Below, piece after piece: positions 5,030-60,960 of a stretch of DNA of 64,000 bases (its first letter is position 1; every line of letters begins with the position of its first letter). Location: NCBI GenBank assembly GCA_021234155.1, contig JAJEKV010000001.1:24787189-24851188 (forward strand), given 5' to 3'. The notes under the pieces are model-generated. The model was given only the letters and a program-made list of their open reading frames with translations. It was not told the DNA's origin and searched no databases. This DNA is from Isoetes taiwanensis. Its lineage: Eukaryota > Streptophyta > Lycopodiopsida > Isoetales > Isoetaceae. The translations under genes and the position numbers were made by a program.

Positions 5030-6606
5030 TGTGGCGTCCCCTACTTTTTTCTGATGCGCGTCATTATTCGAAGGAAGGAGCATTCCCCACAGTAGGCGGC
5101 GGGGGCCATCCACTGACTCTACTCCCATGGGGGCGAGCCCGGCAAAGGGAAGAGTGGATGTGTCATTCATCAAAGTCTCCCATCGGTCGACCTATCTGCA
5201 GGGCGTGAACAAACAAGCGTGAGCACAACTAACAATATACAAATACAATCATCATAGAGATAGTAACATCACGAGAGATAACAATACCTTCATAGCGACA
5301 ATACAAAGGGAGATCCTACCCGGGGACTCGGACTCAAGGAGAATGGTGGCTAGGTCTCCGAGTTCATTCTGGCGAAATTCATGGCAATGGATTTGGGGCA
5401 TAGAACATGGCTTAGGGTAGTCCACTCCATCCGCCCCTCCGGTGCACACTTTGCGAGTAAGCTGAAAAGTGTTGGGACTTCTGGCGTAACTTTAGGGGTG
5501 AATAGCCGAGGGGGCTACTACTGGCTGGTTGCATCTCCCCAACCCGATGAGGCGGGAAGAGAGTTGCCTCTCCTCCGGAGGTGTCCATGCTCATCGCCCG
5601 GCGGCTAGAGGGCCCTTGCCCTTATTGACTTGAACTCCTTTGGAAGGTCATATCCACCACCCCACGGTGTCGAGCTCATGCCTTGCCCACCGCGGGTGAC
5701 AAGCCATTAAGCCTAGCCAGCCAAAGACCCCGATAGGCTTTACTACCCGGAGGGTCGGTCCGCGATGAGACAAGTTCCTCCTTATCAACCGGCCTTGCCC
5801 CTTCACCCACCGGGTGGGCTCACGTTACCGCGGGCGCATTTATTTGGGAACTAAGGTGCTATGCTAGGGCATCTTTGCCGCGACCTTTAGGTCTCTACCC
5901 CCTTCCCAAAACAAGGAGATCCGCGAGTGGAATACATACAATATCCGCGAACAGAAATAGAGAATCACATCAATCTATCTACTTAACATCCAATGTTAGG
6001 TTCATTCGTTAGAGTCTCGGATCTAGGGATCTACAAGGCTTCGAGAGATGATCTAACATACTAAACCGGCATATTGCCATGCCCAAAGGCGGTTTTACTG
6101 TGAGAACAAGGGATACCTGCTCCTTGGCTTGCTCGATCCTCGGAAGCGTCCATGCTCCTGGTCTTGCCGAAGGCGGCGCTACTCAACAACCTTGTTGTGC
6201 AATTCCGACTTTTGAACGGCAATGCGATTTTGAGTCCCACCTTGGCGGAATTGGCGGGGGAACCCTAATTGCGAAGAGGAAAGGAAGCTCTAGAGAACCC
6301 TAATTGGCAAAGTGAAAAGGAGAGCTAGGGTCTAGGGTTTTAGCCCTTATATAGACCCTATCTAGGTTAGGGCATCCACATAGACAAATGGCTTTAAGCC
6401 ATTTGGAAATGGATGAACAAGGAACCTTTTGTTGTGTATGTTTAATTACATACCCAACATCCAAAGTTGCCCCCTAGGTGCAACCTTTGGCTCCTAGGTG
6501 CAGCGTTATCCGGCTCTCAAGTACATGTCATCCGTGACGTATGCGTGTGGCGACGTCTTGCGATATAATATACGTGTTGGGGCGTATATTATCTTTGGGC
6601 GTCACA
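5030..6606 (-). repeat. chromovirus 3' LTR (left copy)
   Basis: Matches 16,765-18,340 along its length, with differences concentrated at CAG/CTG-type positions. On the minus strand it begins TGTGACGCCC at 6,606 and ends CGCCACA at 5,030. A TATA box (minus-strand TATATAAGGG) lies at about 6,344-6,356. Several ACCCTAA-type telobox motifs lie at about 6,250-6,340. The 1,577-bp length implies a long R-U5 relative to U3. Confidence 0.88.
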
Positions 6607-6616: not shown

Positions 6617-7468
6617 GACTTGATCTTTGTCCTCGGCATCACGCGTCTCCCCACCTTGGGTACATATCCACGTAATTCTGAGAACTTTTACATCCATGTT
6701 ATATTAATTACCTCGGGTAATATTTATAGTTTATTGTAATTGTCTTTGTGGTGAGGCTCTTAGTCCTCTACTTCATAATCTCTTATTGACAAAAAATTAA
6801 CATCGGTTATAGTTTAGAAGTTTTAAGCTAGAACTCCATGTCGCCTCCTCACAACACATTATAGCCAAAATTATGTGTTGTGAGTTCTCGTAGCGCTATC
6901 CTCCTGCCGCTTAGTCCTTTGAATTGCCTGCAGGATGTACGCTACGTTAGTACATTTTTAATTATTATAAAGGTTGGTTGTAAGGGAACCACCCATTAAA
7001 TACAATTATATGGATGCAAGGCATATCTCCGGCATAGGAAGATTATGTTTCTTCCATCATGGCGAGGAGAGGCCCTATCATGCCTATATGCCACTCATGC
7101 CTACACACATAGTTGCCTAGCGTGGGACTTGGGTCCTTCCGGTATATGGGGCGTGAAGGGCCCTCCCGTGAGCATTGACTAGAGGTGCTTTTCCTATCAA
7201 TGCATGCACAGGCCTCCTTTCTCTCCGGTGGAGTCTACTTCCGTGGAGCAGTAGACTTCTAATCTACCTTCCACTCACTCAAAGCGAGCTTGGCGGTCAT
7301 GCCTACATTGACATTACACCACGCCCTAGAGAACCCTAGTGGTCTCATCGCCGGTAACAACGCATGCAACCCATGCCTAGCATAGGCTGCATCGTGGATT
7401 AACTATAGCTACACATGCTTAAATCTAAACCCAAATCGACATGCACGAGCGATTTCTTGGTTCTTGAT
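6617..7468 (-). other. 3' untranslated region between integrase and PPT
   Basis: About 850 bp on the minus strand between the end of the integrase/chromodomain frame and the PPT. No conserved frame or RNA gene seen. Confidence 0.5.
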
Positions 7469-8943
7469 GTCGACTACTTCCGGTGGCGAGCCGACCCTTG
7501 CATTGCTCCATAAACTTCGAGTGCTTGCTTCTTAAGATCGATTCCGGTACCCGTGGCGTCTTCCAGCGGTAAGTGCTTCCACTTCACAAGATATTGGAGA
7601 AATTTTGACCTTCTTGTCTTCTTATAAGATCTATTAAGAAGGACTTCGGGACGATTTCAATATGCTTTCGTCCGTCATTTCTAAAAACTCATTTGTTTCC
7701 AATACTTCCTCGGGATTAGGGGTGTGCCTCTTTAGCGGACTTCGTGGAATACTTTATGGATTTTGAGATTTCTTTGGCAGGTCCAACTTGTAGGATTGGG
7801 TACCTACTCTCTTCTCTATCTTGAAAGGTCCAGCCATCTTGGAGCAAGCTTCTTGCAATTGCCGATCTTGGGGAGCTTGGCCTGCTTGACTTTGATCTTC
7901 AACCATACTTTGTCTCCCACTTCAAATTCTCTTCTTTGTCCTATGCTTGTCGGCGATGCTTTTACGCTTTGCTTCTTCTTTGCAAGGAGGTATCCTCTCA
8001 CTTCTTCCACCAAGTCTTGCATTTCCGAAAGCATTTCTTTGGGGAGACTTCCACCTTGGACCACGGGGTTGTGCCAAGTATCAGGGGTAAGACAACGATA
8101 CCCGTAGTTAATCATAAAAGGACTCATCTGCGATGACTCACCTTTGGTCTTTGTTGTATACAAACTCTACTAGGTGGATGAAATCATCCCACTTGGATTG
8201 CTTGTTCCATACATAGCTTCTTAACATATCTTCGATGATCCTGTTTGTCCTCTCCGTCTGACCATCTGTTTGGGGATGATATGCCATGCTCATCGAAAGC
8301 TTTGTCTGGATGGTGGTGAATAGGTCCTGCCAAAGGCACTCATAAACTTGGAGTCTCTATCGAGAGATTATCTCCCTCGGCATGCCATGGAGCCTAAAAA
8401 TCTCCTTAACAAATAGGTTGGCGTGTCTAATGCGTGTATCTATTGTCTTGCCGCGGCACAAAGTGTGCCATCTTTGACAACTTATCTACTACCACCATCA
8501 AGGCATCTTTGCCCCTTCTTGTTCTTGGGAGTCCTGTAATAAAATCCATACTTATTACCTCCCACTTGGCGTTTAGTACAGGCAATGGTTCCAAGGCACA
8601 CGGAATCGAGAGCTGTTCCGCCTTTGTCTGGCGGCATATCGGCACTCTCTAATATATCTTGCTATTTTCTTCTTCATGCCGGGCCAATAATAAGCGCTTC
8701 TAATCTTGAAATGCGTCTTCATGAACCACATGCCACTGCTATGGGACTATTGTGTGTATCATTCAAGATAAGCTTTCTAACTTGAGAAGATTTTGGTACA
8801 CACAATTTATTTTTTATAATATAGCAAATTTCCTTCCTTCTTGTAGTGCACGAACATCTCCCTTTCCTTGTCCGTCCTGGCTTCTTTGGAAGGCTAAGCC
8901 CAAACTTCCTTGAAGTCGAGGTCCGTCGGCAATGTTTCCTCAA
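7469..8943 (-). pseudogene. chromovirus integrase with C-terminal chromodomain
   Basis: Read from 8,943 downward. The HHCC zinc-binding region includes a YYWPGM-like stretch near 8,680-8,700 and the C-P-I-C pair at about 8,637-8,650. The catalytic core shows [13 protein letters not shown] at about 8,530-8,565 and [14 protein letters not shown] at about 8,445-8,485. The C-terminal part (7,816-8,163) has MSPFMINYGYRC and GDKVWLKIK. At about 7,575-7,690, in shifted frames, IDLIRRQEGQ is followed by FLQYLVKWKHLPLEDAT, a chromodomain. Integrase inserts the cDNA; the chromodomain can steer insertion towards marked chromatin. The usual tryptophan after DAT is lost where the DNA reads GCCACGGGTACC, consistent with a missing CTG. 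Several frameshifts are present. Confidence 0.85.
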
Positions 8944-8989
8944 TCTTCACCCAAACTAAACTTCACGAGTGTTGATATGGCATTACAAT

Positions 8990-10350
8990 GGATTCTTGTT
9001 GCCAATGGCTTTCTGGAAAGGGCATCCGCAACCACATTGAGCTTCCACGGTTTATAACTTATCTCAAAGTCATATTCTTCGGGGAATTCCATCCATCTCC
9101 TTTGCCTCAAATTGAGGGCGGTGCGTAAATATGTATTGAAGGCTTTGGTGATCTGTGTCTAGCTGGAATTTTCTTCCCAATAGGTAATGCCTCCAAATTC
9201 TTAAGGCCCTTACTATAGCCGGGGAGCTCTTGATGCGTCGTTGGGTAAGCGGCTTGCTTTCGGCGTCGTTCAACTTCTTGGAGTCATAGGCCACTACTCT
9301 TTCCTCCTCGCATGAGGGACTGCGCTGTTGCTATCACCTAGCATCTGTTGCTCTGAGCTTATCTTTGGTGGGATCGGCAAGACCAATACCGGTGCGTCGT
9401 CAAAGCTTCCTTTAGAGTCTCAAATGCTTTACGGGCCTTGTTTTGCCAATGAGTTGCCCAATCTTTTATCTTCCACCTTTTGTGAGATCTGTTAATGGCG
9501 GCGCTACCTTGGCAAAATTCTTCACAAATCTTCTATAATAGCACCTTTAGCCCTAGGAAGCTCGACTTCATGCGTATTATTTGGTGCCGGCCAGCCGATT
9601 CACGGCTTCTATCTTCGCGAGTGCGTGGAAATGCCTTCTGGCGTGATCCGCGTGCCCCAAGTACTCCACTCTTTCCGTTCGCGAAGTGGCGCCGATAACT
9701 TCCCAAAGAGTTGATGCCTTCTTAACTTTTCAAGCACCTTCCTCAAATGTTGGGCGTGCTCCTCCACCGAACTTCTTTACACCAAGATATCGTCGAAGAA
9801 GACTATGATGAAGGAATCTAAAATTTCGCGGAAGGCGTCGTTCATTAACCTCATGAATGTGGCTGGCGCATTAGACAATCAAAGGGCATAGCGTGAACTC
9901 ATAGTGCCCATATCTTGTCTGAGCAACGTTGTCTTATGGATGTCTTCCTCTTTGATCCTAATCTGGTGATACCACGATCGAGATCTATTTTGGAGAAGAT
10001 CTTTGCTCCACCAGCAACTGATCCATTAAGTCATCGACCTAGGCAAGGCATACTTATTTTTGATGGTGTGCTTATTTAGCCCGCGGTAATCAATGCACAT
10101 CCTAAGGCTCCCATCCTTCTTCTTCACAAAGAGAATAGGGGCTCGAGCGGGGAGACACTAGGTCTTATGAACCCTAGGTCTAGCAATTCACTGCAATTGC
10201 TTCTTTAACTCCGTCAACTCCTCGGTTGACATCCTATAAAATTGCCTTGCTTGTAGGCTTAGTCCCGGGTTCAAGTGCTATTTCACACTTTCGACTCCTC
10301 TATAGGGGGAAGCTGCTTAATCTCATCGGGGAAACAAGTCATGAAATTCC
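8990..10350 (-). pseudogene. chromovirus reverse transcriptase and RNase H
   Basis: The RT palm is visible in minus-strand frames between about 9,400 and 10,250: [13 protein letters not shown] (about 9,845-9,885) and [11 protein letters not shown] (about 9,785-9,820), where FFDD is the catalytic motif C. RNase H follows at 9,070-9,294 with VVAYDSKKLNDAE-like sequence, RRIKSSPAIVRALRIWRHYLLG and [14 protein letters not shown], the last containing the conserved TDH. Together they convert element RNA to cDNA. Order and sequence are typical of Ty3/gypsy. The frame is broken repeatedly; whether the copy is dead or the sequence faulty cannot be told here. Confidence 0.82.
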
Positions 10351-10401
10351 TCGATCAACTTTGCTATTGGCACAGGAAGCTTGCTAGATTCTTTGATCTC
10401 T

Positions 10402-10900
10402 TTATTTCTCTCGGGCTCGATCTTGGAGCTCAAGCTTAAGGAGATAGGCCACTGCTTGCTTTCTTATGCACTTAAGCAATTTTTCACTACTCATGCATTG
10501 CATGATTGGGGTTACTTCTTTACACGTGATCTCGATGACTTTGCCCTCGGCGTTGTTAAAGGTCACCTTCGTTTCCCACAATCGATGATTGCTCTGTTGG
10601 TCCAAGATATTCCATTCCAATAATCGGATCATACTTGCCTATATTCATGACTTCCGCTCCCGATTGCAACATTAACACCTAGCAAGTCTACATTGAAGTT
10701 TATTCTCTTCCTGTTTGTATGCCTAAGCGCTCCATTGGCTAAGGCGGTGGCACGGGCTTGGACTTTAACGGCTTTAACTTCAACATGTTTACCATCCTAG
10801 GGGATGCAAAATTATGGCTTGCTCCACGAGTCTATCAATACTATAAAGGATTTTTCTTTGGCTTTTCCGGTCGTTGAGATCACCTTATCTTGACTTTCTG
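10402..10900 (-). pseudogene. chromovirus aspartic protease region and RT linker
   Basis: On the minus strand FIVLIDS at about 10,830-10,855 is the start of the retroviral-type protease active site (D-S/T-G). The stretch ending 10,402 contains YDPIIGMEYL-like sequence followed by WETKVTFNNAEGKVIEI, the usual segment between protease and RT. The protease processes the Gag-Pol polyprotein. The glycine after the active-site DS reads differently because of a frame break. Confidence 0.65.
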
Positions 10901-12299
10901 CATTTCTGTATCAATAGCTGCAAAATGTGACACTCACCATGGATGTAATCCGTGCTTACCGTCGTCGTCTGCGTCCAGATGGTGTCTCCCATCCCGGTTA
11001 CGCCAATGCGCATTCATTATCGGGGGCAATTGTTGGTCCTATGCCACTGGCTGGAAGCATCTGAAAACATAGCTGCTTTTCTATACACTCCTGCTTCTTC
11101 TCCTTGGGAATGGACTGCGAAATTGCCTCAACTGCTTGGGAATAGTTAGACCTGGCTCCTTGCTCCTTGAAGCTTACTGTTTCCTTTCACCTTGCCACCA
11201 CTTGTGTTGCCTTGCTTCCCATAATTTGAGTTGTCTTTGCGTCTTGCTAGCTCTTGGGATTGCAGCTTGCCCTTGGGCTATAGCCTCCTGTGCCCTTCCC
11301 TTATCCACGGAAATATTGCTGCCTTGGTGTACGCTCTTGTGGTCACGTTCGCTTGCAAACTTATGGCCTTTGCTTACGCCTCGACCACGGACTTGGGTTT
11401 ATTGCCCTTACGAGCTTGCGGATTTCCTCGTTCAAGCCTTCAATATAGCCTTCCACACATGCTTTTAAACTCAACTTTGGCACATAAAGCCTTAGTCTCA
11501 TGAATTCCTCCGGTGTATTTACGGGGTGATTTGTTGCCTTGTTGCGACCTATAGAACTTCTTTGCATCATGTTGCACCTATGTTCTCTTGGCGCGTAATG
11601 ATGTTTGAGCAGCCTTGGCGAACTTCACAATTTGCAACTGTCCTGCTTTCGCCCATGTGCTTTGGCATACCCCTTCCACCAAATTCTTGCTGCTCCCTTG
11701 AGATTTGCTGTTGCTACTCTGCCTTTGTCTTTATCTTTCATGCCATAAGCGTTGCCATACTCGCTCATCTCGTCCAGCCACGCCTCTGCTTCCATTCCGG
11801 ATCTGTTTTCTCCTGAAAACTGTTCTAACTTTCTGGCTTTCCACACATTACTAAGGTCGGAGTCAACTTTCTTACGGTAATCGGTCGTGATCATCCCATC
11901 ACGGTTTGGATCCTGCCGGCGATCCCGTCTCTCTTCTTCCTGCTCCTCCGTCTGCCGAGTGCGTATCGAGCTTTTGGGCTTCGAGGATCCCGAACTAGGA
12001 GATCTTCTCCTTACGCTTCTCTTCCTTTGTTTGCCTTTGTCCGGCCAGGCGGTGTTTCCGGCAAGGGTACATTAAGTCTGTCCTCCTATTCTTTTGCTAC
12101 CCACTAACAATGCCCTTATGTCGTGGATGTCCGATCTGATCTGGGATAGCTCTTCTTCCGGTGTTACTGCCTCGAATTCTGGGCGCAGATTCCTCGGCTG
12201 AAAGCGCCTTGGTGGGGTATGCTCTTGTTCTCGCTGCCTGTGTTCATCAAGGTTTCTAGGTACTCTAGCTGCATGCACATTAGAGTACATTCTGATCAT
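10901..12299 (-). pseudogene. chromovirus gag
   Basis: Starts at an ATG at 12,299 (MIRMYSNVHAARVPRNL). A segment rich in basic and Pro residues is followed by the capsid-like core at 11,625-11,894 (RKLEQFSGENRSGMEAEAWLDEM, LKGAARIWWKGY) and its continuation at 11,361-11,570 (EEFMRLRLYVPKLSLKACVEGYIEGLNEEIR). This is the plant retrotransposon Gag fold that builds the particle. Sequence between 10,901 and 11,360 probably encodes the nucleocapsid end, but I could not confirm a CCHC knuckle. At least three frame breaks. Confidence 0.75.
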
Positions 12300-12749
12300 T
12301 AGCTCTTGTTTTGTGTGTTACGTTGCTTTACTTGTTTATACAATTTGAGGGAACAATTATATACAAAAAGAGGTGTATATTATATTCATATATATATACT
12401 AAAACTTTTACATGCAAATTAATAAACTTCTACTCTTGAAATTTCTTGAGGTAGTCAGGGTGGTCTTCCAAAAATTTCTTCACTTGGGCCATTACCTAAT
12501 GACCTGTTAAATTCCTAAGGATATTTGTTGTCGTTCCTCCTTGAGTCTTTGCCTCCATGTCTTCAATTCTCCTATCGATGTATCAGCGGTTTGTCCTTTG
12601 CCAATCTGCCCTGCCGCCTATAAGGGATTGCAAAGTCGAAGATGGTCAATGCAATCGCTCTCTTGATCAGGACAACATGATCGATGTTTGATGCTAATCG
12701 AGCATGGTGTCCAAATCTGAGGAGAGGCGATAAGCATAAAGACCCCTTC
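12300..12749 (-). other. AT-rich spacer between ORF-B and gag
   Basis: No convincing coding frame. Contains a TA-rich stretch around 12,375-12,400 (minus-strand TATATATATGAATATAATATA), which could serve as a promoter for gag or be chance. No copy of the palindromic unit occurs here. Confidence 0.4.
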
Positions 12750-13960
12750 TTAAGCCTCGTGGGCTAAATTGGCGGTGAATAACCGCCATATTCTTCCGTC
12801 TAGCGACAGCGGCGGTAGTATCGAGTGCTTTATCATGCCACCTTCTTCTTGGACGAGGAAGTTGCCACAATGCCTTCCCCCGAAGTCATCCACTTGTACT
12901 TCCTCTAGCTCTCTGAAGTCTTGGTGCACCGGCCTCCTTAGATTGATCTTTATGCCTCCATGTTGCTTGAGGATTGGTGTTGGCGAGCTCGGTAACAATG
13001 CTGATGTGGACTTGCCCTTGATGCCCATTTGTTCTTGAATCGCCATGAACTCCTCCTCCTCAGGGCAATTCCCTTTCGGTCATCATCACGCGATGCTGCG
13101 TAAGCTTCTATATCGATGATGTCTATGCCGGTGAAGGTCACGGCTTCTCTTATCTTTGATAGGGAAGTCACGAGCTTCTCGATCGATGAAGTCGTCGAGA
13201 TCTGCTTTCTTGTCGTAGAAGGTGCAAAATCTCATCCACCCTAAGGCCTCTGCATGGCGGCATTGTGGGAGATTCTTAATGTCATGGAGGGTGAGGTATG
13301 CCTCACACGCTATGAATCTGGGTGTCAAGCTTGTAATGCCACTGCCCGGTGGTGGGGCTCTTCTTGTTGCTCTTAGTCCCTCTTTGAAGCTTTGGATCTG
13401 GCTGTTTGCACTTCTTTGCCCCTCTTGCTCCGGATCCGGTCTTGAGGGGTCCGACTTCGTATTCCCTCTTCTTCTTCTCTTCTTCTTGCTTTCATTACTT
13501 TCGAAAGTCGCATCCGTTCCTCCTCCATTGCGGCCATGGCTATGGGTTCAACTTCTAAAGGCTGGTGGGGTTCCCCTATCTGGGTTTGACCCGAAGAGAT
13601 AGAAAGATGGCTCAGATTGGCTTGTATAGGAGAAGTACCTCCTCCTATTGACAGAAATGGACATGTAGTTGGGAAGGCGGACTGCTTTATTCTCTAAATA
13701 CTTATCTACATTTGGGATATCTTGCAGGGCTGACTTGAGGGCAGTGTTAGGTGCAAAATATCCTACACAAGGTGGGAGTTCTACTAAAGATGGTCCTATC
13801 TTGGCGTGGAACTTCGGACATAATGCTCGGTAGAAGGGAGTGGCGTTGATGGTAGCTTCAATGTCGAGTTCCCTTCGGAAGACACGAAAAGCGGTTCGAT
13901 GTCAGCTTCAGCCACATGAGCTGTGGCGCTGTACCATCGCTTGAATGAAGAAGTGGCCAT
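12750..13960 (-). pseudogene. chromovirus leader ORF-B, unknown function
   Basis: Start taken at the ATG at 13,960 (MATSSFKRWYSATAHVAEAD), 110 bp after a TATA box; a GTG at 14,062 would extend the frame but is unlikely in a eukaryote. Reading with frame changes gives roughly 400 codons ending at 12,750. Features: IGPSLVELPPCVGYFAP and PNVDKYLENKAVRLPNY at 13,640-13,800; a Lys/Arg/Glu-rich stretch near 13,400-13,540; TPRFIACEAYLTLHDIK and EALGWMRFCTFYDKKADLDD at 13,200-13,328; a C-terminal part with ELEEVQVDDFGG. It lies between ORF-A and gag, a position where the Ogre/Tat group carries an extra ORF, but I see no similarity to any named family. Frames are broken about four times. Confidence 0.55.
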
Positions 13961-14069
13961 GGGCACTGAGGAGCTGGGGATGACAGACAGATGCTGAAGC
14001 GCCCTAAGGATCAGGGAAATCGGCTTGGAAGCGAGAGGCGAGGTTGTAAAGGCAAATGACACTTGGGTT

Positions 14070-14081
14070 CCCCTTTATAGG
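14070..14081 (-). promoter_or_regulatory. TATA box upstream of ORF-B
   Basis: Minus-strand CCTATAAAGGGG, preceded by TTAGGGTTTTG (telobox-like, AAACCCTAA on the other strand) at about 14,084-14,096. It lies about 110 bp before the ORF-B ATG, a normal distance for a plant promoter with a short 5' UTR. Role inferred from sequence alone. Confidence 0.5.
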
Positions 14082-14243
14082 CAAAACCCTAATTTTGGGA
14101 AAATTTTAGGTTAGCATTTGTCTACAATTTCTAGGGTCTAGAGGTATAATTCATGGGCTAACTGAGCTTGGAAATACTTCTAAGGATCCCTAAGCAATGA
14201 TTTTGGTTCGTTTAAGGGCGACTTTGGGTCAATTGGACGACCA

Positions 14244-14712
14244 CCACTCACCGCATCGCCCAGTGGGATTGGTTTGGGGACCAAATGGGTTCGAGCGCAC
14301 TCTGTGAGGGGTGGGCTCTTATTTAGATCAATAATGATGCTAACTAGAGAACTAAGGGTATAATCACGGGTATCTCATTGAGATAACTGGATTGAGCCCT
14401 TACTATATTTGGGCAAGTTTTGGTCTAGATTGGGGTCGACCACTCACCGCGATCGCCATGGGGATCGGTTTGCAAACCCGAATGAGCACAGGCGCTCTCG
14501 TGAGGGTGGAACTCCATTCGGCTGATAGTTGGTGGGTTTTGACAAACTATGGGTCAAATCCTACTAATTAAGGTGAGTTGGGTCGAATGGTATACCTACT
14601 TTTCGCATTTAGGCAAGATTGGGCACCAAACTATGCTCGACCACTCACCACGGCGCCCGGGGAAGAGTTGGTTTATAAACCGAACTGGTTGGGCGCGATA
14701 CGTGAGGGGTGG
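14244..14712 (-). repeat. palindromic leader repeat, block 1 (three units)
   Basis: Units at 14,244-14,314, 14,440-14,509 and 14,641-14,712, spaced 196 and 201 bp apart. Each starts CCACTCACC and ends GTGAGGG(G)TGG, forming an outer stem. Each has an inner palindrome: ATTGGT...ACCAA, ATCGGTTTGCAAACC and GGTTTATAAACC respectively. Sequence between units is also partly alike (TTTAGGCAAG/TTGGGCAAG). The block separates ORF-A from the ORF-B promoter. Confidence 0.8.
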
Positions 14713-14935
14713 GACCAAAATGCTTGGTTTTTGTTCCAATTTTACTAATTTCTAAATCTGAGAATTCGGTAATGCATCCTACTTACACTCAATTAATTTA
14801 CTGAACTACAAACTTATACTAGAGAGAAGGTTATCTACAACAGTTCAAAAGGTTCTTTCTTAATATACCGCTAGCCTCATATCTTTGGGCATACAAGTGA
14901 CTCTCTTAGCGTCTTTGGGCACATGCAACGAGTCT

Positions 14936-16047
14936 TCAAAGTGGTGTCACGATGTGCTGCTCCGGCGCCTCACGCAATGCAAGCGGCATGTCGTCCGTGA
15001 CCCGTTTGGGCGGGTCGAACTCTACAAAATCTCCCTCGTCGGGGCGTGCAAAGGAAGCTCGGGGGAATAAAGGAAGCCATAGCTCTGCTTTGGAAGTGCT
15101 TGATTTCTGGACCGCCCTCGCCAATTTTGAGTCCGCCCGGTCTCTTCATTGGCTTCTTGGGAGGGGTTGGCTGTTCGGTGGGGGCTTCAGCGTATTTTTT
15201 TCTTAGGTCGGCCGACCTCCTTCAATGGTCCTCACCACTGTGTTCTTCATAGTATTTGGAGTATTCTTACGTACATTTTCATGTATGCAGTGTACTCCTT
15301 CAACTCCTTCCGGTACTTCAAATCCCGCTTGACATAAGACTCCCTTTGCGGCCTTGGTTTCTTGAATGCTTTTGTCATTTGGGGTGCTTCGGCGACGGCC
15401 ATTTAGGATAGGGCGGTGCATTAGCCACAGGGTCTTCTTCCTCCGGTATTGGGTTGGAAGGCCCCGAAGTCCCTCCCGGTTCGTGTCCTCCCGCTCCCTC
15501 CTCAGATGCGGAGTCGGACGAAGATGGGGGCTTCTCGAGATCCGGCTCTGTATGGTCACTCCCTACGGCCCGGCGTCTTCTTCTTCTTCGGTTTCTTTGC
15601 AGCACCTCCGGGTCCTTGCCTTTCTCCGCTCTCACCCTCTCCCGCTCCTCCTTGCGCTTCCTCCTTTCTTCCCTCCTCTGTTCCTTCTCCTCCCTCCTCT
15701 TCCGCCGCTCCTCTTTTTCTTTCTGCGGCCTTTCGCCTTTGATTTCTTGGTGGCTTTCTTCTCTTTTTCCTCTTTGCCTTCTTTGGTTCGGGCTCTGGGT
15801 TACGGTTCGGTTCTTTGTCATCGCGAAGATCTCCCTCTCCGGCTCCTTCTCAATTCCTCGGCGTCCATCCCCGGTCGAGCTGCTCCGATACTTGTTCTGC
15901 TCTTAAGGTTAGGGTTAGGTGGTTCTCTGGTGCCTCTGTTCTTCGATGTGTTCTTATGCGTGTCTAGCCTTACGTCGGACGGCCCGGCTCTGGCCCGACA
16001 TAACCGGGTGGCATAACCTTGCGTGCGGTTTGTTTCGTCCGTGCCAT
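14936..16047 (-). pseudogene. chromovirus leader ORF-A with histone H3 N-terminal tail mimic
   Basis: The ATG at 16,047 has A at -3 and G at +4. The first ten residues, MARTKQTARK, equal the histone H3 start including K4 and K9; then VMPPGYVGPEPG, which is not H3. With frame changes near 15,970 and 15,800 the reading continues as SDVRLDTHKNTSKNRG, then a long alternating Glu/Arg/Lys stretch (about 15,600-15,780) like a single alpha-helix, a run of seven Arg (about 15,575-15,600) that could be a nuclear signal, and an acidic Ser/Pro/Glu-rich part. Later, in other frames, RDLKYRKELKEYTAYM and FVEFDPPKRVTDDMPLALRE lead to a stop near 14,936. Estimated length about 370 residues. As written, the frame stops about 25 codons after the start; the breaks may be sequence error. 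A chromatin-interacting role is inferred only. Confidence 0.6.
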
Positions 16048-16146
16048 GCTTTTGTTTGACGAGTTTGAGCTTTGGCGCTGAAGATCGTCTTCTTGAAGCG
16101 ATTTGTCCTCAGGAAAAGGTGGGGATAAAATAGAAAACCTAATTTT

Positions 16147-16158
16147 CTATTTATAGGG
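16147..16158 (-). promoter_or_regulatory. TATA box upstream of ORF-A
   Basis: Minus-strand CCCTATAAATAG, a near-perfect plant TATA box, 100 bp before the ORF-A ATG. The predicted leader after it has no upstream ATG that I can see before MARTKQ. It suggests that ORF-A can be transcribed from its own internal promoter rather than only from the LTR. Confidence 0.55.
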
Positions 16159-16265
16159 AGGTGGAATTTAGGGTTGGGACCTGCAATTCATATGGGGAAA
16201 AACAAACTAGGGCATTAGCGAAGGTGCGAGGCGTTACGGTGGTTTACCATACTCTAAAACACCCA

Positions 16266-16550
16266 CCACTCACACAATGCTTTGGGCCAGATTGGATTAC
16301 CAATCGAATGAGTGCAGGCACTTTCTGTGAGAGGGTCGATTTTTTTGAAGCTATTTTATAATTCACGGGGGAGTTTCTTAGTGTTATAAAATACAAACCC
16401 GGACTAGAATGAAGGGAGTAAACTAATCTATACTATCGGTTTAATTAACTTGTACTTCTATTTAGGTCAATGTTGGTCAACCACTCACCGCAGTCGCTGG
16501 GTTCGATTCGGATTACAAACCGAATGGGCACAGGCGCCTCTCAGGGGTGG
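16266..16550 (-). repeat. palindromic leader repeat, block 2 (two units)
   Basis: Units at 16,266-16,336 and 16,481-16,550, 215 bp apart. Inner palindromes are GATTGG-ATTA-CCAATC and ATTCGG...CCGAAT; the extra C on one arm of the second is matched by a G on the other. Outer arms are CCACTCAC with GTGAGAGGG, and CCACTCACCGC with CAGGGGTGG. The block lies between the PBS and the ORF-A promoter. Confidence 0.78.
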
Positions 16551-16751
16551 CCCGCTTTCTTAACAATTTAGGTTGGGTGATGCTACACTTCACTAGCAAT
16601 CTAGCATGGAGCTATGTTCTAACCCAAAATTGGAAAATTTTCCCAATTTTTGAAGCTCTTGCTTGGGTGGCTATACCCCAAGACTTCGAATCTCTTGTTA
16701 GTCCTAAAGGGAAAAATGGCGATTGCTTTCGATCTTGGATGCCAAGATCAT

Positions 16752-16762
16752 GCTCGATACCA
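16752..16762 (-). other. primer-binding site, initiator tRNA-Met type
   Basis: The minus strand directly after the 5' LTR reads TGGTATCGAGC. The usual plant PBS for initiator tRNA-Met is TGGTATCAGAGC, so this copy differs by one missing A inside CAG. It confirms that the right-hand repeat is the 5' LTR. Confidence 0.8.
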
Positions 16763-16764
16763 CT

Positions 16765-18340
16765 TGTGGCGTCCCCTACTCCTTATACAATGCCCGCGCC
16801 ATTATTCGAGGAGCATTCCCCACAGCATTTGCACGGCGGGGGCCATCCACGACTCTACTCCCATGGGGCGAGCCAACAAGGGAAGAGTGGATGTGTCATT
16901 CACCCGTCTCCCATCGAATTGACCTATCTGCGGAGCGTGAACAAACAAGCGTAAGCACAACTAACAATATACAAATACAATCATCATAGAGATAGTAACA
17001 TCCGAGATAACAATACCTTCATAGCAACAATACAAAGGGAGATCCTACCGGGACTCGGACTCAAGGAGAATGGCCGGCGGCTAGGTCTCGAGTTCATTCT
17101 TGGGAGGCGAAATTCATGGCAATGGATTTGGCTGGCATAGAACATGGCTTAGGGTAGTCCACTCCATCCGCCCCTCCCATGCACACTTTGCGAGTAGGCT
17201 GAAAAGTGTTGGGACTTCAAGCCGTAACTGCCGGGTGAATAGCGGAGGGGCTACTACTGTTGGGTTGCATCTCCCCAACCCGATGAGGCGGGGAAGAGTT
17301 GCCTCTCCTCGAGAGGTATCCATGCTCATCGCTGGCTAGAGGGCCCTTGCCCTTATTGACTTGAACTCACTTGGAAGGTCATATCCACCACCCCCGCAGT
17401 GTCGAGCTCATGCCTTGCCCACCGCGGTGACAAGCCATTAAGCCCTAGCCAGCAAAGACCCCGATAGGCTTTACTACCCGGAGGGGGTCAGTCGATGAGA
17501 CAAGTTCCTCCTTATCAACCGGCCTTGCCCTTCACCCACGACCCGGTGGGCTCACATTACCGCGGCGCATTTATTTGGGAACTAAGGTGCTATGCTAGGA
17601 GCATATCTTGCCGCGACCTTTAGGTCTCTACCCCCTTCCCAAAACAAGGAGATCCGCGAGTGGAATACATACAATATCACATAGCAGAAATAGAGAATCA
17701 CATCAATCTATCTACTTAACATCCAATGTTAGGTTCATTCGTTAGAGTCTCGGATCTAGGGATCTACAAGGCTTCGAGAGATGATCTAACATACTAAACC
17801 GCATATTACCACGCCCAAAACGGTTTTGCACTGTGAACAAGCTTGGATACCTGCTCCTTGGCTTGCTCCCGATCCTCGGAGCGTCCATGCTCTGGTCTTG
17901 CCGAAGGCGGCGCTACTCAACAACTTTGTTGTGCAATTCCGACTTTTTGAACACGCAATCGCGATTTTGAGTCCCACCTTGGCGGATTGGCCCGGGGAAC
18001 CCTAATTGCGAAAGAGGAAAGGAAGCTCTAGAGAACCCTAATTGGCAAAGTGAAAAGGAGATCTAGGGTCTAGGGTTTTAGCCCTTATATAGACCCTATC
18101 TAGGTTAGGGCATCCACATAGACAAATGGCTTTAAGCCATTTGGAAATGGATGAACAAGGAACCTTTTGTTGTGTATGTTTAATTACATACCCAACATCC
18201 AAAGTTGCCCCCAGGTGCAACCTTTAGCTCCCTAGGTGCAACGTTATCCCGCTCTCAAGTACATGTCATCCATGACATATGCGTGTAACGTCAGCGATAT
18301 AATATACGTGTTGGGGCGTATATTATCTTTGGAGCGTCTA
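16765..18340 (-). repeat. chromovirus 5' LTR (right copy)
   Basis: Direct repeat of 5,030-6,606. It starts TGTGGCGTCCCCTAC on the plus strand. Its outer end reads GAGCGTCTA where the left copy reads GGGCGTCACA, so the terminal CA is altered. Differences between the two LTRs lie mostly at CAG/CTG sites, so their true divergence, and hence the insertion age, cannot be read off this sequence. Confidence 0.87.
18082..18096 (-). promoter_or_regulatory. LTR promoter TATA box
   Basis: Minus-strand GGTCTATATAAGGGC inside the 5' LTR, about 250 bp from its outer end, flanked by TAGGGTTTTA and CTAGGGTCTAGGG. This is the likely start of the genomic transcript. The same motif is in the left LTR at about 6,344-6,358. 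Confidence 0.6.
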
Positions 18341-21088: not shown

Positions 21089-23221
21089 ATGGAGAACAGA
21101 TGCAAAGCAGGATTGACTTGGCTAAATGAAGGTGATAAATGCACCAAGTTCTTCTTTAAGTCAGCTAAAGAAAAGAAGAGGTCCTCTACTCTATCAACCA
21201 TTGCACTAGGCGACGGCTCGATCCTCAAATCCCCAGGGGATCTAAAAAGGTACTTACATAATCATTTCCAAGGTTTTTTTGGGGAACATAACTTGCCATT
21301 CCAAGATACATATGAAGAGCTAGTGATCTCTAAAGTTTCACCTATAATGAGCTCTAGCCAAAAAGATATTAAAAGTCTCTCTCTCTCTATGGAGGATCTT
21401 GAAAAAGCCACCCTCTTATTGGCTAAGAATAAATGTCCGGGTATGGATGGAATTCCCATCGAATTCTACCAATGCAATTGGGAATGGATTAAAAATGATA
21501 TCTTTTCTGCATACACAAACTTCTTGCAAGCTGAAAATTTAAATCCAAGATTGAATACAGGCTGCATTGCCTTGGTACCCAAGTGTAAAGAGCCAAGCAC
21601 AATTAACGATTGGAGGCCTATCACACTCCTATCTGCATTTTACAAAATCATAGCCAAGGCTATGGCAGAGAAGATCAAACCAATTTTAGCGGAAGGTATC
21701 TCACAGGCTCAATCTGGCTTCTTACCGGGTAGGAGTATTCTGAGCAATGTGGCAGCAGCTTTTGAAGGGTTGCACTGGGCCAGAAAAACAGGACAAAAAG
21801 TAGCCTATCTAAAGCTAGATTTCACCAAGGCATATGACAGCATTAGATGGAGTTTTCTGCATAAAATGATGCTCAAGCTGGGTTGTGGGGATATTTTTAC
21901 AGAAGGGGTAATGAAACTATTGAGATCAGCTCGAGCCTCAGTCTTATTTCAAGGTGAATCATCTCCTATATTTGAGATTAAGAGGGGCATCAGGCAAGGT
22001 TGTCCCCTGGCTCCCTTCCTCTTCAATATAGCAGCAGAAGCCCTCTCACAGTTATTCCTGCAAGCATCTGCAAACGGTCTCATTCAGGGACTAGAAATGT
22101 GGGATGGTTCTCAACAAATCTGTAACCAGTATGCAGACGACTCATTTCTGTTTATCGAGGCAGAGGAAAACAATATGTCATGTGCAGGACAACTACTGGC
22201 CACCTTCTCAATAGCTTCAGGTTGCCTCATAAATTGGAAAAAGTGCTCAGTGCAGTGGCCTTTGGAGAACAGGCATCCCATATGTTTGGAAAGCTTACCA
22301 TGGAAAATTATCCCTGAGGGTGAACACTCCAGCTTGTTAGGAATCCCAGTGGGCATTAACATCACTAGTGCACGAATATGGGATGAAATGCTACTAGGCC
22401 TACATAAACACCTAAATTGGTGGAAGGTAGCAAAGTTATCCCTTGCAGGGAGGATTACTGTGGCAAAACATGTGCTAAGTAATACTTATGTATACATATC
22501 ATCAATTCTACTTGCTCCGAGGGAGAAGGTGCATGAGTTAGAAGGGTTGATTCGTAACTTCGTCTGGGGAGGTAATGAAGAAGGTGCAACGATCAAAATT
22601 GCTTGGTGGAAGTGCAAGAGGGACAAAGCAGAAGGGGGAATTGGTATGTTCGACATAGTCTTACAGAGCAAAGTATTAATAGCCAAATTCATATGGATGA
22701 TTCTTCAGGAAAAGGTGAAGTCTCCAGGTTTGCACCTCATCAACCAAGCTCTATTATACTCTTGTAAGCATAGTAAGCCCTCCGTCAAGGTCTCGCTTCC
22801 ATGGTCTCTCTTTTTTTATCTCAAGCCATGTAAAGAAGCCTCCCCCTTCCTGAAGGGTCTTATTTCGGCTTGGAATGCCATAAAGAAACTATTCACGCTT
22901 GATATCAGCAAATTTAAAGCAGGGACCTCCCCTCCATGGTGGGTACCAGTGGAATTGCACAATAAACAAGGTCCACTAGGTATAGTGGCTGACGCAAGGA
23001 TTGTGAAGAGATGGAAAAACTGTGGTATACATTCTTGTGCTCAGTGGTATATGGGAGAGCACACGGCCCGGTTAGGAAGCATTTCAAGTCTGTTTTGGTT
23101 TAAAGGAGGCGACAAGATAATTTGGGAATGTGTGGCTTCCGTACTCCCAAACACAATAAATAGAGGAGATCAAAGTCCATGGCTCATACATCCTTCGACA
23201 TCTGACCAAACAAGTTTGTGA
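21089..23221 (+). CDS. LINE reverse transcriptase (open 710-codon frame)
   Basis: The start (MENRCKAGLTWLNEGDKCTKFFF) is the first Met of the open frame; the natural polyprotein would begin in the endonuclease upstream. Landmarks: LAKNKCPGMDGIPIEFY (about residue 115), NDWRPITLLSAFYKI (about 170), QAQSGFLPGRSI (about 210), YLKLDFTKAYDSIRW (about 245, catalytic Asp), GIRQGCPLAPFLFN (about 305) and NQYADDSFLF (about 350, catalytic DD). After the thumb comes LLGIPVG, then a long connection domain (LIRNFVWGG, GGIGMFDI). All polymerase residues are intact, so this part could be functional if the flanking breaks are sequence errors. Confidence 0.88.
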   Translation: MENRCKAGLTWLNEGDKCTKFFFKSAKEKKRSSTLSTIALGDGSILKSPGDLKRYLHNHFQGFFGEHNLPFQDTYEELVISKVSPIMSSSQKDIKSLSLSMEDLEKATLLLAKNKCPGMDGIPIEFYQCNWEWIKNDIFSAYTNFLQAENLNPRLNTGCIALVPKCKEPSTINDWRPITLLSAFYKIIAKAMAEKIKPILAEGISQAQSGFLPGRSILSNVAAAFEGLHWARKTGQKVAYLKLDFTKAYDSIRWSFLHKMMLKLGCGDIFTEGVMKLLRSARASVLFQGESSPIFEIKRGIRQGCPLAPFLFNIAAEALSQLFLQASANGLIQGLEMWDGSQQICNQYADDSFLFIEAEENNMSCAGQLLATFSIASGCLINWKKCSVQWPLENRHPICLESLPWKIIPEGEHSSLLGIPVGINITSARIWDEMLLGLHKHLNWWKVAKLSLAGRITVAKHVLSNTYVYISSILLAPREKVHELEGLIRNFVWGGNEEGATIKIAWWKCKRDKAEGGIGMFDIVLQSKVLIAKFIWMILQEKVKSPGLHLINQALLYSCKHSKPSVKVSLPWSLFFYLKPCKEASPFLKGLISAWNAIKKLFTLDISKFKAGTSPPWWVPVELHNKQGPLGIVADARIVKRWKNCGIHSCAQWYMGEHTARLGSISSLFWFKGGDKIIWECVASVLPNTINRGDQSPWLIHPSTSDQTSL

Positions 23222-24284: not shown

Positions 24285-25390
24285 AAGTTCTGGTCTATCT
24301 GGGAGTCTCTCTTGCCTTGCTCCTCTGCTTCCATCAACAATACCTGGCACACTGTCATCTACTTGTGGGGTTGCCTTGCTCTTCTACCAGAACTATCCTT
24401 TCTTTCTAGAGGCCTCATATGCTGGAATCTAAGCCAGATCTTACCCCTTATCAGATCCCTGCATATAGGCTCGGTCTAGGGCGAAACATTAAGAAATAGT
24501 CACCCCCCTCATTAATGATTATAGTATCATGGAATTTGCGTGGCATCAAAGGGATACTCAAACGTGATAGGAAACTAGCAGCTGTCAGGTCCATGCAGGC
24601 GGACATCATCATGTTACAAGAACACAGACTACCGGACTTCGAGGCCAAATCTCTTGGTAATTGGGTAGGCTGCGGTTACTCATCTTTTAGTTGTGATGCC
24701 CAAGGTACCAAGGGGGGCAAGTGCATTCTTTGGAAAGGACAGGGGCAAAAACGCTCGTTTGTAGAGCCTGGGGGCAGGTGGCAGATAGTTATCTTTGAAG
24801 GCCAATTGTCAATGGGGGCTTGTTAATGTTACTGGATATCCCAACATGAGAATATGGTTGAAAACTGGATACTGGAGGGGGACTTGAATATGACAGACAC
24901 GTGGGACCAAAAAGTAGGGCTGCACAAGAATTTGCAAGCAGAGGAGGAGCACTCACGGCACTCGCTTCTAAATACGGTGGGTCTCTCCTTAGTACCTCCC
25001 TCTAATACTACATTTTCCTGGTCTAACAAACAAAAAGGTCAGGAGAGGGTGTATTGCCTGCTGGACAGATTCTACATGGCCAACAAAACGACAAGCTTTA
25101 TGGATAAGTGTTATGTAGGAGGTGATCTCGCGTTCTCACACTCGGATCATGTCCCAAAAAAATGGTCTTAGAAGACATCTCCACTTCAAGGAAAAACGGT
25201 GATGTCCCTTTTAAATTCAATACCTCATGGCTGAAAAAGAAGGCTTTTTGCAACCCTTTTAGGGAATTCCTTGGCACATTATACAACGAGGTGACTATCC
25301 TTCCCTCCATGAAAGCTTGGGTCCATAAGCTCAATTCCATGAAGGCTTGGATAAAAATCTGGGGCAAGAACAGAGTCTTGAATTTTAGCG
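24285..25390 (+). pseudogene. second LINE, endonuclease fragment lacking RT
   Basis: The frame at 24,515-24,826 begins MIIVSWNLRGIKGILKRDRK, ADIIMLQEHRLPDFE and has GTKGGKCILWK, typical of LINE endonuclease motifs I-III. The frame at 24,854-25,171 continues with WILEGDLNMTD, TFSWSNK, LLDRFYM and SHSDHVP (last catalytic His). A third frame (to about 25,380) encodes FKFNTSWLKKKAFCNPFREF, the linker before RT. It stops there: the RT and tail are absent. Loss of the 3' rather than the 5' part is unusual for a LINE insertion, suggesting later deletion or recombination. The 230 bp before the endonuclease carry no clear frame. Confidence 0.75.
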
Positions 25391-31020: not shown

Positions 31021-31486
31021 AATTTTCTATGGCGCATGTTCCTCTAACTATTTTTCTATGGTGCATGCTCTTCTATACTAAGTTGAGTTAGCAACATTGG
31101 CCCAAAATTACAAACTCCTATATCACATATTCTATCCCCTAACATCTGTTGCAAAAGTAAATTGTCAAATTATTTCTTGGCAAGTTTTTATTTTGAAGGT
31201 TGGAGCATACTATGCACGGAAATTTGCATTCGTACTAGCACAAACATCAATAATATTGTCTATGCATGTTGTGAACTTGTCTTAAAATCCTTGAATTTCC
31301 AAAGGAACTTTAGTATATTGTCATTATTCTTTACTATTGAAGTCCCAAATTCTCACCTTTCCCATACGAACAAACATTGGCACTCCTAGGTGCTAATGGC
31401 AAAATGTACTACACAATTTAATTGTTCACAATTTAGTTGTTCAGCTTCGCAAGTTATTACATATAATACACATAACAACAAACACA

Positions 31487-32060
31487 TAACAACCAACACA
31501 TAACTACCATTGACATTAATTAACACAACCATTGGGTCCAACACATTTAAATTAAAATCCCCCTTAAACCCCCTTTGGTTTGGGTGCCTATTCACCACGG
31601 GCAACCAACACATAACTACCATTGACATTAATTAATACAACCATTGGGTCCAACACATTTAAATTAAAATCCCCCTTAAACCCCCTTTGGTTTGGGTGCC
31701 TATTCACACGGGGGGTGACTCCGGGCAACGAGAGCTGTTGGATAGGTATATTCACCCCTTATTCCTTAATCTACACCGTACGTAAAGTTCCTCATTTGTG
31801 GGGTATGCAAGTACAAAATTTGCTATACTGTATAACAAGATTCGCAAAATACTATAAGATTTCAAGCAGAATACTATATGGTGTTGATTTCGTACGTGCA
31901 AAATACAATTATGAGGGCTCTCGCCAGACACGCGTCACCCCCTCGTGAATATGCACCCAAACCAAAGGGGGTTTAAGGGGGATTTTAATTTAAATGTGTT
32001 GGACCCAATGGTTGTGTTAATTAATGTCAATGGTAGTTATGTGTTGGTTGTTATGTGTTG
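31487..32060. mobile_element. foldback/MITE-like element with direct and inverted arms
   Basis: An arm of about 110 bp (CAACCAACACATAACTACC ... GGTTTGGGTGCCTATTCAC) occurs twice in direct order (31,487-31,597 and 31,602-31,707) and once inverted (31,945-32,060). The central 240 bp start ACGGGGGGTGAC and end GTCACCCCCTCGTG, a second, inner inverted pair. There is no transposase frame. This is the form of a non-autonomous DNA element, perhaps one MITE inside another. The copy in the second block is at about 60,380-60,960. Confidence 0.7.
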
Positions 32061-33930
32061 GGGGATTTAATTTTTATATGTTGGATGTTAATGGTTTGTG
32101 TTGCAAAAAATTTTTTTGGCCCCTTCTTTAGGACGACGTCACCCCCCCTGTGACAAAAATTTTAGAATTCAAACCAGAAAAAAACTAGAATTCATTTGAG
32201 GCTTTCATCACCTGTAGCTTTTGAATTTGATCACAATAAAACAAATAGAACATAAGTAAAAGTTACCATAACGATAGAGCAAAATGATCCCATTATTCTG
32301 AAAGTCATAAAGTTTGCAACACCCATACACAAACATTTTTCAACTGGAATTTAATAGCAGCCTTTGGCCTCCATGGATTCTTGTGGTGAGAAACCAAAGT
32401 GGGAAACTTTTCTGCTTGTTAGCACAAGGATCTAGAAGCCTTGGAATTTGCTTAATAACTGCCTCAAAATCTAAAAATGCATGGTAATTTTTTGCAAGCT
32501 TCATTCGGGAATGAGCCATAAAATAATATCCAATAGCGCAATCCTGTATTAATCAACTGGTAGGATGTGAAAGCCTACCAAACCCGGCCGAAAAATTGCT
32601 GTTTTAGCATACATAAGTTAACCAAACATATCCATATCCATATCATACACTATCAAAAAGATCTCGGAGAGAGCTTTCCAACGCAATAAAAATCATCTCA
32701 AACAGAGCTCTGGATCAAAAGTTATGATAAGAAATGTGTTGCCGGCGGAAAAACTGCACTACATGCGCCCTTCAAGCCCTTCATGTGCCCATTATGCACC
32801 ACACACACACAAAAAGAGGGCTTTTATTGTGAGCCATTGGTTGTTGACCATTGAAAAAAAATGCTAAAATCAATGGCCCTTCATGTGCCAATTATGCACC
32901 ACACGCACAAAAAAAGGGCTTTTGTTGTGAGCCATTGGTTGTTGACCATTGAAAAAAAAAAGGCTAAAATCAATGGCTCAGAAATGGTGCACTCTAGATG
33001 TACGCATTAGTATATCCATTTGAATACATCACGAAATCATAGGAAAACCTTAGTGAAAAGCGTACAAAAACACACAGAAAACCCCCTGTTATTATGCTAC
33101 ATATTACACTCAAGGCATAGTTTTGAAAGCTGAAAGCAAAGCATCCTATTATTTCCTTAGCAATTTGACACCATTGCTCTTCACGTGAAATGTCTTTCAA
33201 GGACCCATGCCCATGGGTGCCTAATATAGAACATTTGTATCAAAAGTAGACGAAACATGTTCAAATGCTTCTAAATTCACTAGACGATAGATCAGAATGC
33301 TTATCTAAATTTATAAAACGTCCTATAAATAGCACATCATAATTCACTACCAAATACATCTTCACATTGTAGTAGTGGCATCTATGCACTTTTTAAATCA
33401 AGTAGGAATGCATAATGATGTAAAAGCTTAAAGGCCAGTTGATGAGGCATCATAATGCAAGCTAAATTGAATAAGCATTCTCCCTTCTTCAACCTACTTC
33501 ACTTACGTGCGAAGCATTTCTTTCCTCCCAAAAATGCTAAATTTTTGCAACGCCATTTTAGATATTTGATAAATGGCATCTGCAAACTAGAACAAATTTA
33601 AGTATAGCCACATATCCCTCGAAGAAAATTCGAAGAGAATGAGTGAAAATAACCATTGTTAGACTACAAACTAGAGACACAAACAATAATCTTGACATTG
33701 ATGTTCTGCTTCTTCCTCATGCTTCCTCCTCATACTAAAAATGTTTAAATCAATGATGAGGTGAAGCTCATATTATTTTTATGGTTTATCTAATATTTGA
33801 CCTTCAGGGCAAGAGAAGTCACAAACAAATTCAATGTTGCGACAAATAAGAACATGAAAACATATGATAAACCACCACATAAGATTGTCCCTGGCCATAG
33901 ATAATAAGGGTAAAATAGAAGTTAGCACCA
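32061..33930. other. AT-rich sequence within the duplicated block
   Basis: Contains another GTCACCCCCCCTGTGAC palindrome-like site at about 32,139-32,155, and a tandem pair of about 110 bp (CCCTTCATGTGCC...CCATTG) at about 32,770-32,975 repeated around TTATGCACCACAC. No gene recognised. Confidence 0.4.
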
Positions 33931-59642: not shown

Positions 59643-60379
59643 TGTTGGGGGTAATGGAATCTAAAAGAATCTTGATAGAATCTTTGGGCATCTATGACAA
59701 TATTGATAGAAAGCATCAAGAAATCTTAAGGGAATCTTGCAAAATCTAGTAGATATGTAATTGAAATTGTCATTTTCTTTTTTTCTTTTTTATGTTTTTC
59801 ATTTATTTTTAATAAACAATTTAGCATGGCAAGCGATATGTAGTTGTAATTGTCATTGTTTTATGTTTTAAATTTATTCTTAATAGGCAGTTTCGCATGG
59901 CAAACTAAATTTTCTATGGCGCATGTTCCTCTAGCTATTTTTCTATGGTGCATGCTCTTCTATACTAAGTTGAGTTAGCAACATTGGCCCAAAATTACAA
60001 ACTCCTATATCACATATTCTATCCCCTAACATCTGTTGCAAAAGTAAATTGTCAAATTATTTCTTGGCAAGTTTTTATTTTGAAGGTTGGAGCATACTAT
60101 GCACGGAAATTTGCATTCGTACTAGCACAAACATCAATAATATTGTCTATGCATGTTGTGAACTTGTCTTAAAATCCTTGAATTTCCAAAGGAACTTTAG
60201 TATATTGTCATTATTCTTTACTATTGAAGTCCCAAATTCTCACCTTTCCCATACGAACAAACATTGGCACTCCTAGGTGCTAATGGCAAAATGTACTACA
60301 CAATTTAATTGTTCACAATTTAGTTGTTCGAACCCATGAGTTATTACATATAATACACATAACAACAAACACATAACAA

Positions 60380-60960
60380 CCAACACATAACTACCATTGA
60401 CATTAATTAACACAACCATTGGGTCCAACACATTTAAATTAAAATCCCCCTTAAACCCCCTTTGGTTTGGGTGCCTATTCACACGGGGGCAACCAACACA
60501 TAACTACCATTGACATTAATTAATACAACCATTGGGTCCAACACATTTAAATTAAAATCCCCCTTAAACCCCCTTTGGTTTGGGTGCCTATTCACCGGGG
60601 GTGACTCAGAGACAGCAGAGAGCTGTTGGATAGGTATATTCACCCCTTATTCCTTAATCTACACCGTCATTAAAGTTCCTCATTTGTGGGGTATGCAAGT
60701 ACAAAATTTGCTATCTTGTATAACAAGATTAGCAAAATACTATAAGATTTCAAGCGAGAATACTATATGGTGTTGATTTAAATGCGTGCAAAATACAAAT
60801 TATGAGGGGCTCTCTTTATTTGCGTGCGTCACCCCGGTGTGAATATGCACCCAAACCAAAAGGGGTTTAAAGGGATTTTAATTTAAATGTGTTGGACCCA
60901 ATGGTTGTGTTAATTAATGTCAATGTCAATAATGTTATTTGAATTGTTATGTGTTGGGGG
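60380..60960. mobile_element. foldback/MITE-like element, copy 2
   Basis: Counterpart of 31,487-32,060, with two direct arms (60,380-60,480 and about 60,489-60,594) and one inverted arm (from about 60,840). The inner GGGGGTGAC/GTCACCCCGGTGTG pair is kept in altered form. The inverted arm is shortened near 60,925. Confidence 0.65.

Follow-up and report, generated by a model that had tools for sequence, protein, structure and literature searches.

Why does a reading frame within a plant retrotransposon open with the tail of histone H3? The question is raised by a 64,000-nucleotide stretch of the genome of the quillwort Isoetes taiwanensis (referred to here as the window), whose minus strand contains ATGGCACGGACGAAACAAACCGCACGCAAG, encoding MARTKQTARK, identical to histone H3 from the initiator Met to K9. 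H3 is one of the spool proteins of chromosomes, and marks placed on this tip turn genes on or off. Rereading the letters of the window bore out both this translation and the start codon context, A at −3 and G at +4, given in the original prediction. In the window copy, the ten residues are followed by VMPPGYVGPEPGRPT and then a stop, giving an ORF of 25 aa; residues past VMPPGYV have been altered by indels, and nine intact copies of the same gene have SAQERA at this place. The prediction had also regarded the frame as the leader ORF of a chromovirus, encoding a histone mimic. The first half of this holds, as the tail opens the leader ORF of an LTR element bearing a chromodomain. The second half is too narrow: the ORF ends in an H3 histone fold, so the tail does not sit as a brief mimic on some other kind of protein.

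The element in the window

The frame, denoted ORF1, lies in what its sequence identifies as a chromodomain Ty3/Gypsy LTR element on the minus strand (Table 1). The two LTRs are 90.6% identical over 1613 alignment columns, with 73 mismatches and 46 gap openings, and TGGTATCGAGCA, next to the 5′ LTR, resembles a primer-binding site, putatively for initiator-Met tRNA. ORF1, ORF2 and gag-pol are all frame-broken in this copy. A tblastn search with ORF1 of copy L021 aligned its residues 270–374 to positions 15235–14915 and residues 227–391 to 15363–14863, and a gag match was obtained at 11882–11055. ORF2, located between the histone ORF and gag, is 504 aa long in copy L032 and has no Pfam match at E ≤ 1.

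Table 1. Features of the element in the window
Feature	Position	Strand	Basis
5′ LTR	16765..18338	−	LTR–LTR alignment
Leader, LTR to ORF1 start	16048..16764	−	Primer-binding-like TGGTATCGAGCA adjoining the LTR; two copies of a hairpin-forming repeat
ORF1 start, MARTKQTARK, matching histone H3 exactly up to K9	16018..16047	−	Direct reading
ORF1 footprint (histone H3-like gene), frame-broken	14845..16047	−	tblastn of L021 ORF1; stop position read
H3 histone fold footprint in ORF1, approximate, broken frame	14848..15120	−	tblastn; fold identified from intact copies
ORF2 footprint, frame-broken	12429..13960	−	tblastn of L032 ORF2, residues 1–504 at 13960–12433
gag-pol footprint (gag, protease, reverse transcriptase, integrase, chromodomain), frame-broken, approximate limits	7420..12299	−	Start placed from gag start of intact copies
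3′ LTR	5030..6603	−	LTR–LTR alignment
~80-base repeat copies	16466–16548, 16252–16342, 14634–14716, 14434–14512, 14240–14318	−	

The chromovirus assignment is borne out by Pfam matches in other copies (L032, L033 and L038), which cover gag with its zinc knuckle, the protease, the integrase and the chromodomain. The cut-off is exceeded by Retrotrans_gag (55.6 and 63.2 bits) and by the integrase core (40.6 bits); the zinc-knuckle region of gag scores below it, and the reverse transcriptase was recognised by eye only. The Chromo match, 27.7 bits against a cut-off of 25.1, comes from L038, a copy with ORF1 and an internal deletion, in which the chromodomain follows the integrase; the chromodomain of the window copy is frame-broken. 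By reading, the L038 domain keeps the central tryptophan, lacks the first and third cage aromatics and appears to be of the group II type among the chromodomain types defined in a study of plant chromoviruses (PMC3350952). The quillwort element resembles the group II plant chromoviruses described there in its Ty3 gag-pol, in the position of the chromodomain and in the missing cage aromatics, but differs from them in that it also encodes an H3.

Three further features of the window were observed. A repeat of ~80 bases sharing GTGAGTGGT occurs in five copies on the minus strand: two precede ORF1, and three lie in the interval from ORF1 to ORF2. Its ends are paired in the predicted fold in four of the five (z-scores 0.03, −1.47, −2.92, −1.05 and −2.08), and an Rfam scan of 13900–16800 gave no match at E ≤ 1, leaving the repeat without an Rfam family. 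Judged by eye, open frames at 21089–23221 and 24515–24826 resemble a LINE-type reverse transcriptase (710 aa) and the start of an endonuclease. Finally, the same set of tandem repeats is found at 31412–32977 and 60299–61872, ~29 kb apart, which suggests either two copies of one element or a duplication.

Copies, histone fold and selection

We then asked whether the gene recurs in the genome. The assembly, which was derived from nanopore and Illumina reads and for which the genome paper states 1658.30 Mb, with 204 scaffolds plus 909 unplaced contigs (PMC8566536), was searched as 1,658,258,908 bases in 1110 contigs, with the window lying in contig C907. A DNA search yielded 464 first-look candidates, of which 40 were scored and all 40 examined (L001–L030 and L039–L048). 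One is the window itself; the others are 80–91% identical to it, two of them over part of the query only. This recurrence rules out a fragment of a host H3 gene stranded at a single place.

Exact MARTKQTARK is present in 28 of the 40 scored copies, the window's included, so that other copies do carry both the motif and its start codon. Twenty-nine copies were classed as free of indels across and directly after the tail, and all but one of these are exact, the exception (L046) lacking the ATG. The other 11 fall outside this class, and some have substitutions, such as R2W in L013 and T3M in L023, the latter copy also having an indel just behind the tail. In 12 of the 40 copies the ORF reaches 370 aa or more, the other 28 falling short of this, and 9 of the first 30 loci have an intact ORF1 of 394–401 aa. 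The frame that the prediction described is broken in the window and intact in nine other copies.

Of the first 30 copies, 21 are not intact, and the broken frames were assessed in all of these except L028, using the best alignment piece only. Relative to the nearest intact copy, these 20 contain 371 indels, 346 of them not multiples of three; the window copy accounts for 38. As many as 79% of the indels lie within 3 bases of a CG or CHG site, compared with 47% of positions in general. This enrichment fits base-calling error at methylated sites without proving it, and true decay may contribute instead.

The intact copies disclose what follows the tail. At the C-terminal end of ORF1, the Pfam Histone model matches with an E-value of 3e-23 (82.7 bits against a cut-off of 26.4), and H3 chains in PDB match with 8.1e-20, or 2.4e-23 when a profile of nine rows is used. 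The fold aligns to host H3 over 87 aa with 49% identity and no gaps, and in all nine intact copies the last residue corresponds to H3 residue 135, the canonical last position. Judged by its sequence, ORF1 is an H3 variant encoded by the element and made up of the tip (residues 1–9), ~260 mostly charged residues and the H3 histone fold. Residues kept in all nine copies include R69, R72 and R83, as well as C110, H113, D123, L126 and I130, and K115, R116, T118 and K122, these last two sets being positions of the H3–H3′ bundle and the dyad. Differences from host H3 are equally uniform: in all nine, Q stands in place of R49 and K56, P in place of R63 and D in place of K79, and residues 40–43 are ADSK. 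Given these changes, contacts with entry DNA may have been lost.

The continuous canonical tail of residues 10–38 is absent; K9 is followed by V and then by the ~260 residues, a long insert that has no histone counterpart. The stretch before the fold is only weakly tail-like. Some of the profile-based PDB alignments start at ORF1 residues 271–275, on H3 residues 8–13, and others only at 307–309. The simplest description would be an H3 tail split after K9 by ~260 charged residues, with a weak boundary; a second copy of the H3 tip within ORF1 is possible.

Selection on ORF1 is purifying. Since the copies share ancestry, the pooled figures are descriptive: dN/dS is 0.13 over the nine intact ORFs, with 0.29 for codons 21–60, 0.14 for the middle and 0.074 for the last 92 columns, which hold the fold. 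The ten tail codons show pS of 0.24 with dN of 0 and no amino-acid difference. Among the 28 exact copies, the tail occurs in six DNA versions that differ at four codons, always synonymously; if the four changes are independent, the chance of this without selection is ~0.004. The check proposed with the prediction, whether the tail stays at the N-terminus under purifying selection in related copies, came out in its favor.

Further H3-like genes and the origin of the histone gene

How widespread are such genes? A degenerate DNA pattern for the MARTKQTARK start has 1051 matches in the 1.66 Gb assembly and the reversed pattern none, while the host H3 genes seen number 15. This control, together with the purely synonymous variation of the tail among copies, rules out a chance match, as the prediction had argued from the length of the identity. 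One hundred of the places were listed, and for the 35 whose letters were available we counted 25 distinct synonymous versions of the start. Two places have versions of the window family (family A), two have host versions and 31 have neither; these 31 may represent further element families. Among viral contigs, a search with two short patterns only gave 74 matches, none of which was confirmed.

Searching the genome with Pfam Histone produced 8705 first-look candidates, of which 150 were scored, all 150 above the cut-off, and the best 30 of these were cut out as loci. Fifteen of the 30 are host H3 genes (L049–L063), reading MARTKQTARKSTGG. The other 15 (L064–L078) have H3 folds in other settings. 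Thirteen loci make up family B, which combines an N-terminal domain beginning M(P/S)RFKLT with the H3 fold. The domain of L067 (family C) is related to it (hhalign E 1e-23); in L075, the H3 fold is present and no N-terminal domain of the family B type was seen. L064–L078 thus present a second and a third type of H3-fold ORF, having another N-terminal domain, no exposed H3 tip and a place in other LTR elements.

Identity to host H3 is 72% over 131 aa in one family B protein and 82% over 110 aa in another, and the family B fold has a dN/dS of 0.047 (13 loci). Gag is encoded downstream of the H3-fold ORF in L074, and in the stretch after L070 (L079) gag is followed by a retroviral-type protease. 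The L074 gag is 50% identical to that of family A over 290 aa. Other element families also have an ORF at the position of ORF2, with a weak C-terminal match; between families A and B, ORF2 gives no more than a weak collinear match (hhalign probability 27%, P 7e-4).

As for the origin of the histone gene, recent capture from the host H3 genes found is unsupported: silent sites of family B are saturated relative to all 15, although the host genes are themselves diverged (pS 0.60 at silent sites). Because of this saturation, the H3 gene of family B appears to have been kept for long. In a tree of 31 rows, family A forms one clade (100/100) on a long branch. It stands beside three CENH3/CENP-A rows with support of 86/78, a placement made with the bootstrap not settled, with CENH3 rows entered by hand and without a host CENH3, which was looked for in the same genome and not found. 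An origin from CENH3 is shown neither by this tree nor by the profile search, in which the best 60 PDB rows are H3. A single clade of the family A and B histone genes was neither rejected (p-AU 0.112) nor demonstrated on the 31-row tree, and these genes may stem from one ancient capture or from several.

Possible roles of an element-encoded H3

What might the element gain from this protein? The reading to which we give a little more belief than doubt is that the ORF1 product is an H3 variant working in chromatin. After Met removal, the protein would pair with host H4 and H3–H4 chaperones and enter nucleosomes or tetramers. Its free ART-K4-QTAR-K9 tip would be read and written like that of host H3, while the missing S10, K27–K36 region and K79 would remove other marks. 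The most likely benefit would be altered chromatin on or near element copies, either weakening silencing or providing a landmark for integration. An H3-like role is favored because the bundle and dyad residues are kept. On the other hand, the loss of arginines near the DNA entry argues for looser DNA ends or for activity away from the nucleosome. There is no support for a simple scheme in which the integrase would read the tail encoded by its own element, since chromodomains of the group II type are not known to bind H3K9me. Nor need the integrase chromodomain read H3K9me at all, as L038 lacks the first and third cage aromatics.

The alternative closest to the original prediction is a soluble decoy or recruiter that is not incorporated into nucleosomes, its H3 tip binding or occupying readers and writers of H3K4 and H3K9 and its fold serving only for chaperone binding or dimers. 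We consider this unlikely. The exact tip kept by selection, the free N-terminus expected after Met removal, the long charged linker and the altered DNA-contact residues are all consistent with it, but a decoy would not need a fold held at a dN/dS of 0.07 and ending at residue 135. Less probable again is a particle protein, whose basic linker and fold would pack the element's RNA or cDNA, or bring the pre-integration complex to chromatin, with the tail as a docking tag. Such a function would accord with the highly charged middle of ORF1 and with its place, immediately preceding ORF2 and gag and transcribed in the same sense as these. However, gag already has a zinc-knuckle region, albeit one below the Pfam cut-off, and packaging alone leaves the invariant H3 tip unexplained.

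The neighborhood of family A and the CENH3 rows in the tree raises another alternative, namely a fold derived from, or imitating, CENH3 that directs the element to centromeres. LIPRASF and RVTDDMLLALQEA of ORF1 also resemble stretches of plant CENH3. However, the CENH3 fold has a longer loop 1, whereas that of ORF1 is of H3 length, as the ungapped alignment to host H3 indicates; moreover, the top rows of the profile search include no CENP-A, and the tree support is not decisive. We therefore regard a centromeric type as quite improbable. That ORF1 is a host H3 gene picked up by the element and of no use to it is barely credible: a review records that plant LTR elements capture genes (PMC7264820), and many copies are broken, but the selection test contradicts a passenger, with dN/dS of 0.13 and 0.047 in two element families.

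The preferred reading, an H3 variant acting in chromatin, can be set beside known systems in which selfish genomes carry host-type genes. The same review lists plant LTR retrotransposons with additional ORFs as a known class, and the quillwort element shares with them an ORF additional to gag-pol that lies before gag in the sense orientation; it differs in that this ORF is a histone H3, and the word "histone" does not appear in the review (PMC7264820). In an orchid Ty3/Gypsy lineage with an AlkB-type ORF, a host-type gene also acts on host epigenetic control, but there it is an RNA demethylase and here a chromatin component (PMC12786077). Among the matches listed in searches of the open-licence literature on histones, histone mimics and additional ORFs in connection with retrotransposons, we found no report of a retrotransposon-encoded histone H3, and the word "histone" is absent from the text of the Isoetes genome papers checked. 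Giant viruses encode histones and are likewise selfish genomes with relatives of core histones, but they are DNA viruses with histones for their own genome, whereas the quillwort case concerns one H3 in an RNA-copying element. Mimics of the histone H3 tail are known from viruses and likewise involve residues resembling this tail in a protein encoded by a foreign genome; the tail of the quillwort element differs in sitting on a protein that has the H3 fold too.

Taken more broadly, we tentatively propose that a lineage of chromodomain retrotransposons has long carried a core histone gene, as the saturation of silent sites relative to host H3 suggests, and that this genome contains many hundreds of copies marked by an H3-tail start or by an H3 fold. 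Its own H3 variant might then be a self-made nucleosome mark, serving escape from silencing or as an integration landmark, and most of the H3-type coding sequence of one plant might reside in mobile elements. Hosts silence retrotransposons through marks written on histone H3. An element with an H3 of its own, retaining K4 and K9 and missing several marked sites, would be making a direct move in this conflict, and the integrase of the same element already bears a chromatin-type domain. H3 is among the most constrained of eukaryotic proteins, which makes the case testable by simple biochemistry. For annotators, it is a warning that most H3-like genes in a genome of this kind may be genes of mobile elements, and for the biology of these elements it means that some jumping genes may act on chromatin through a histone of their own.
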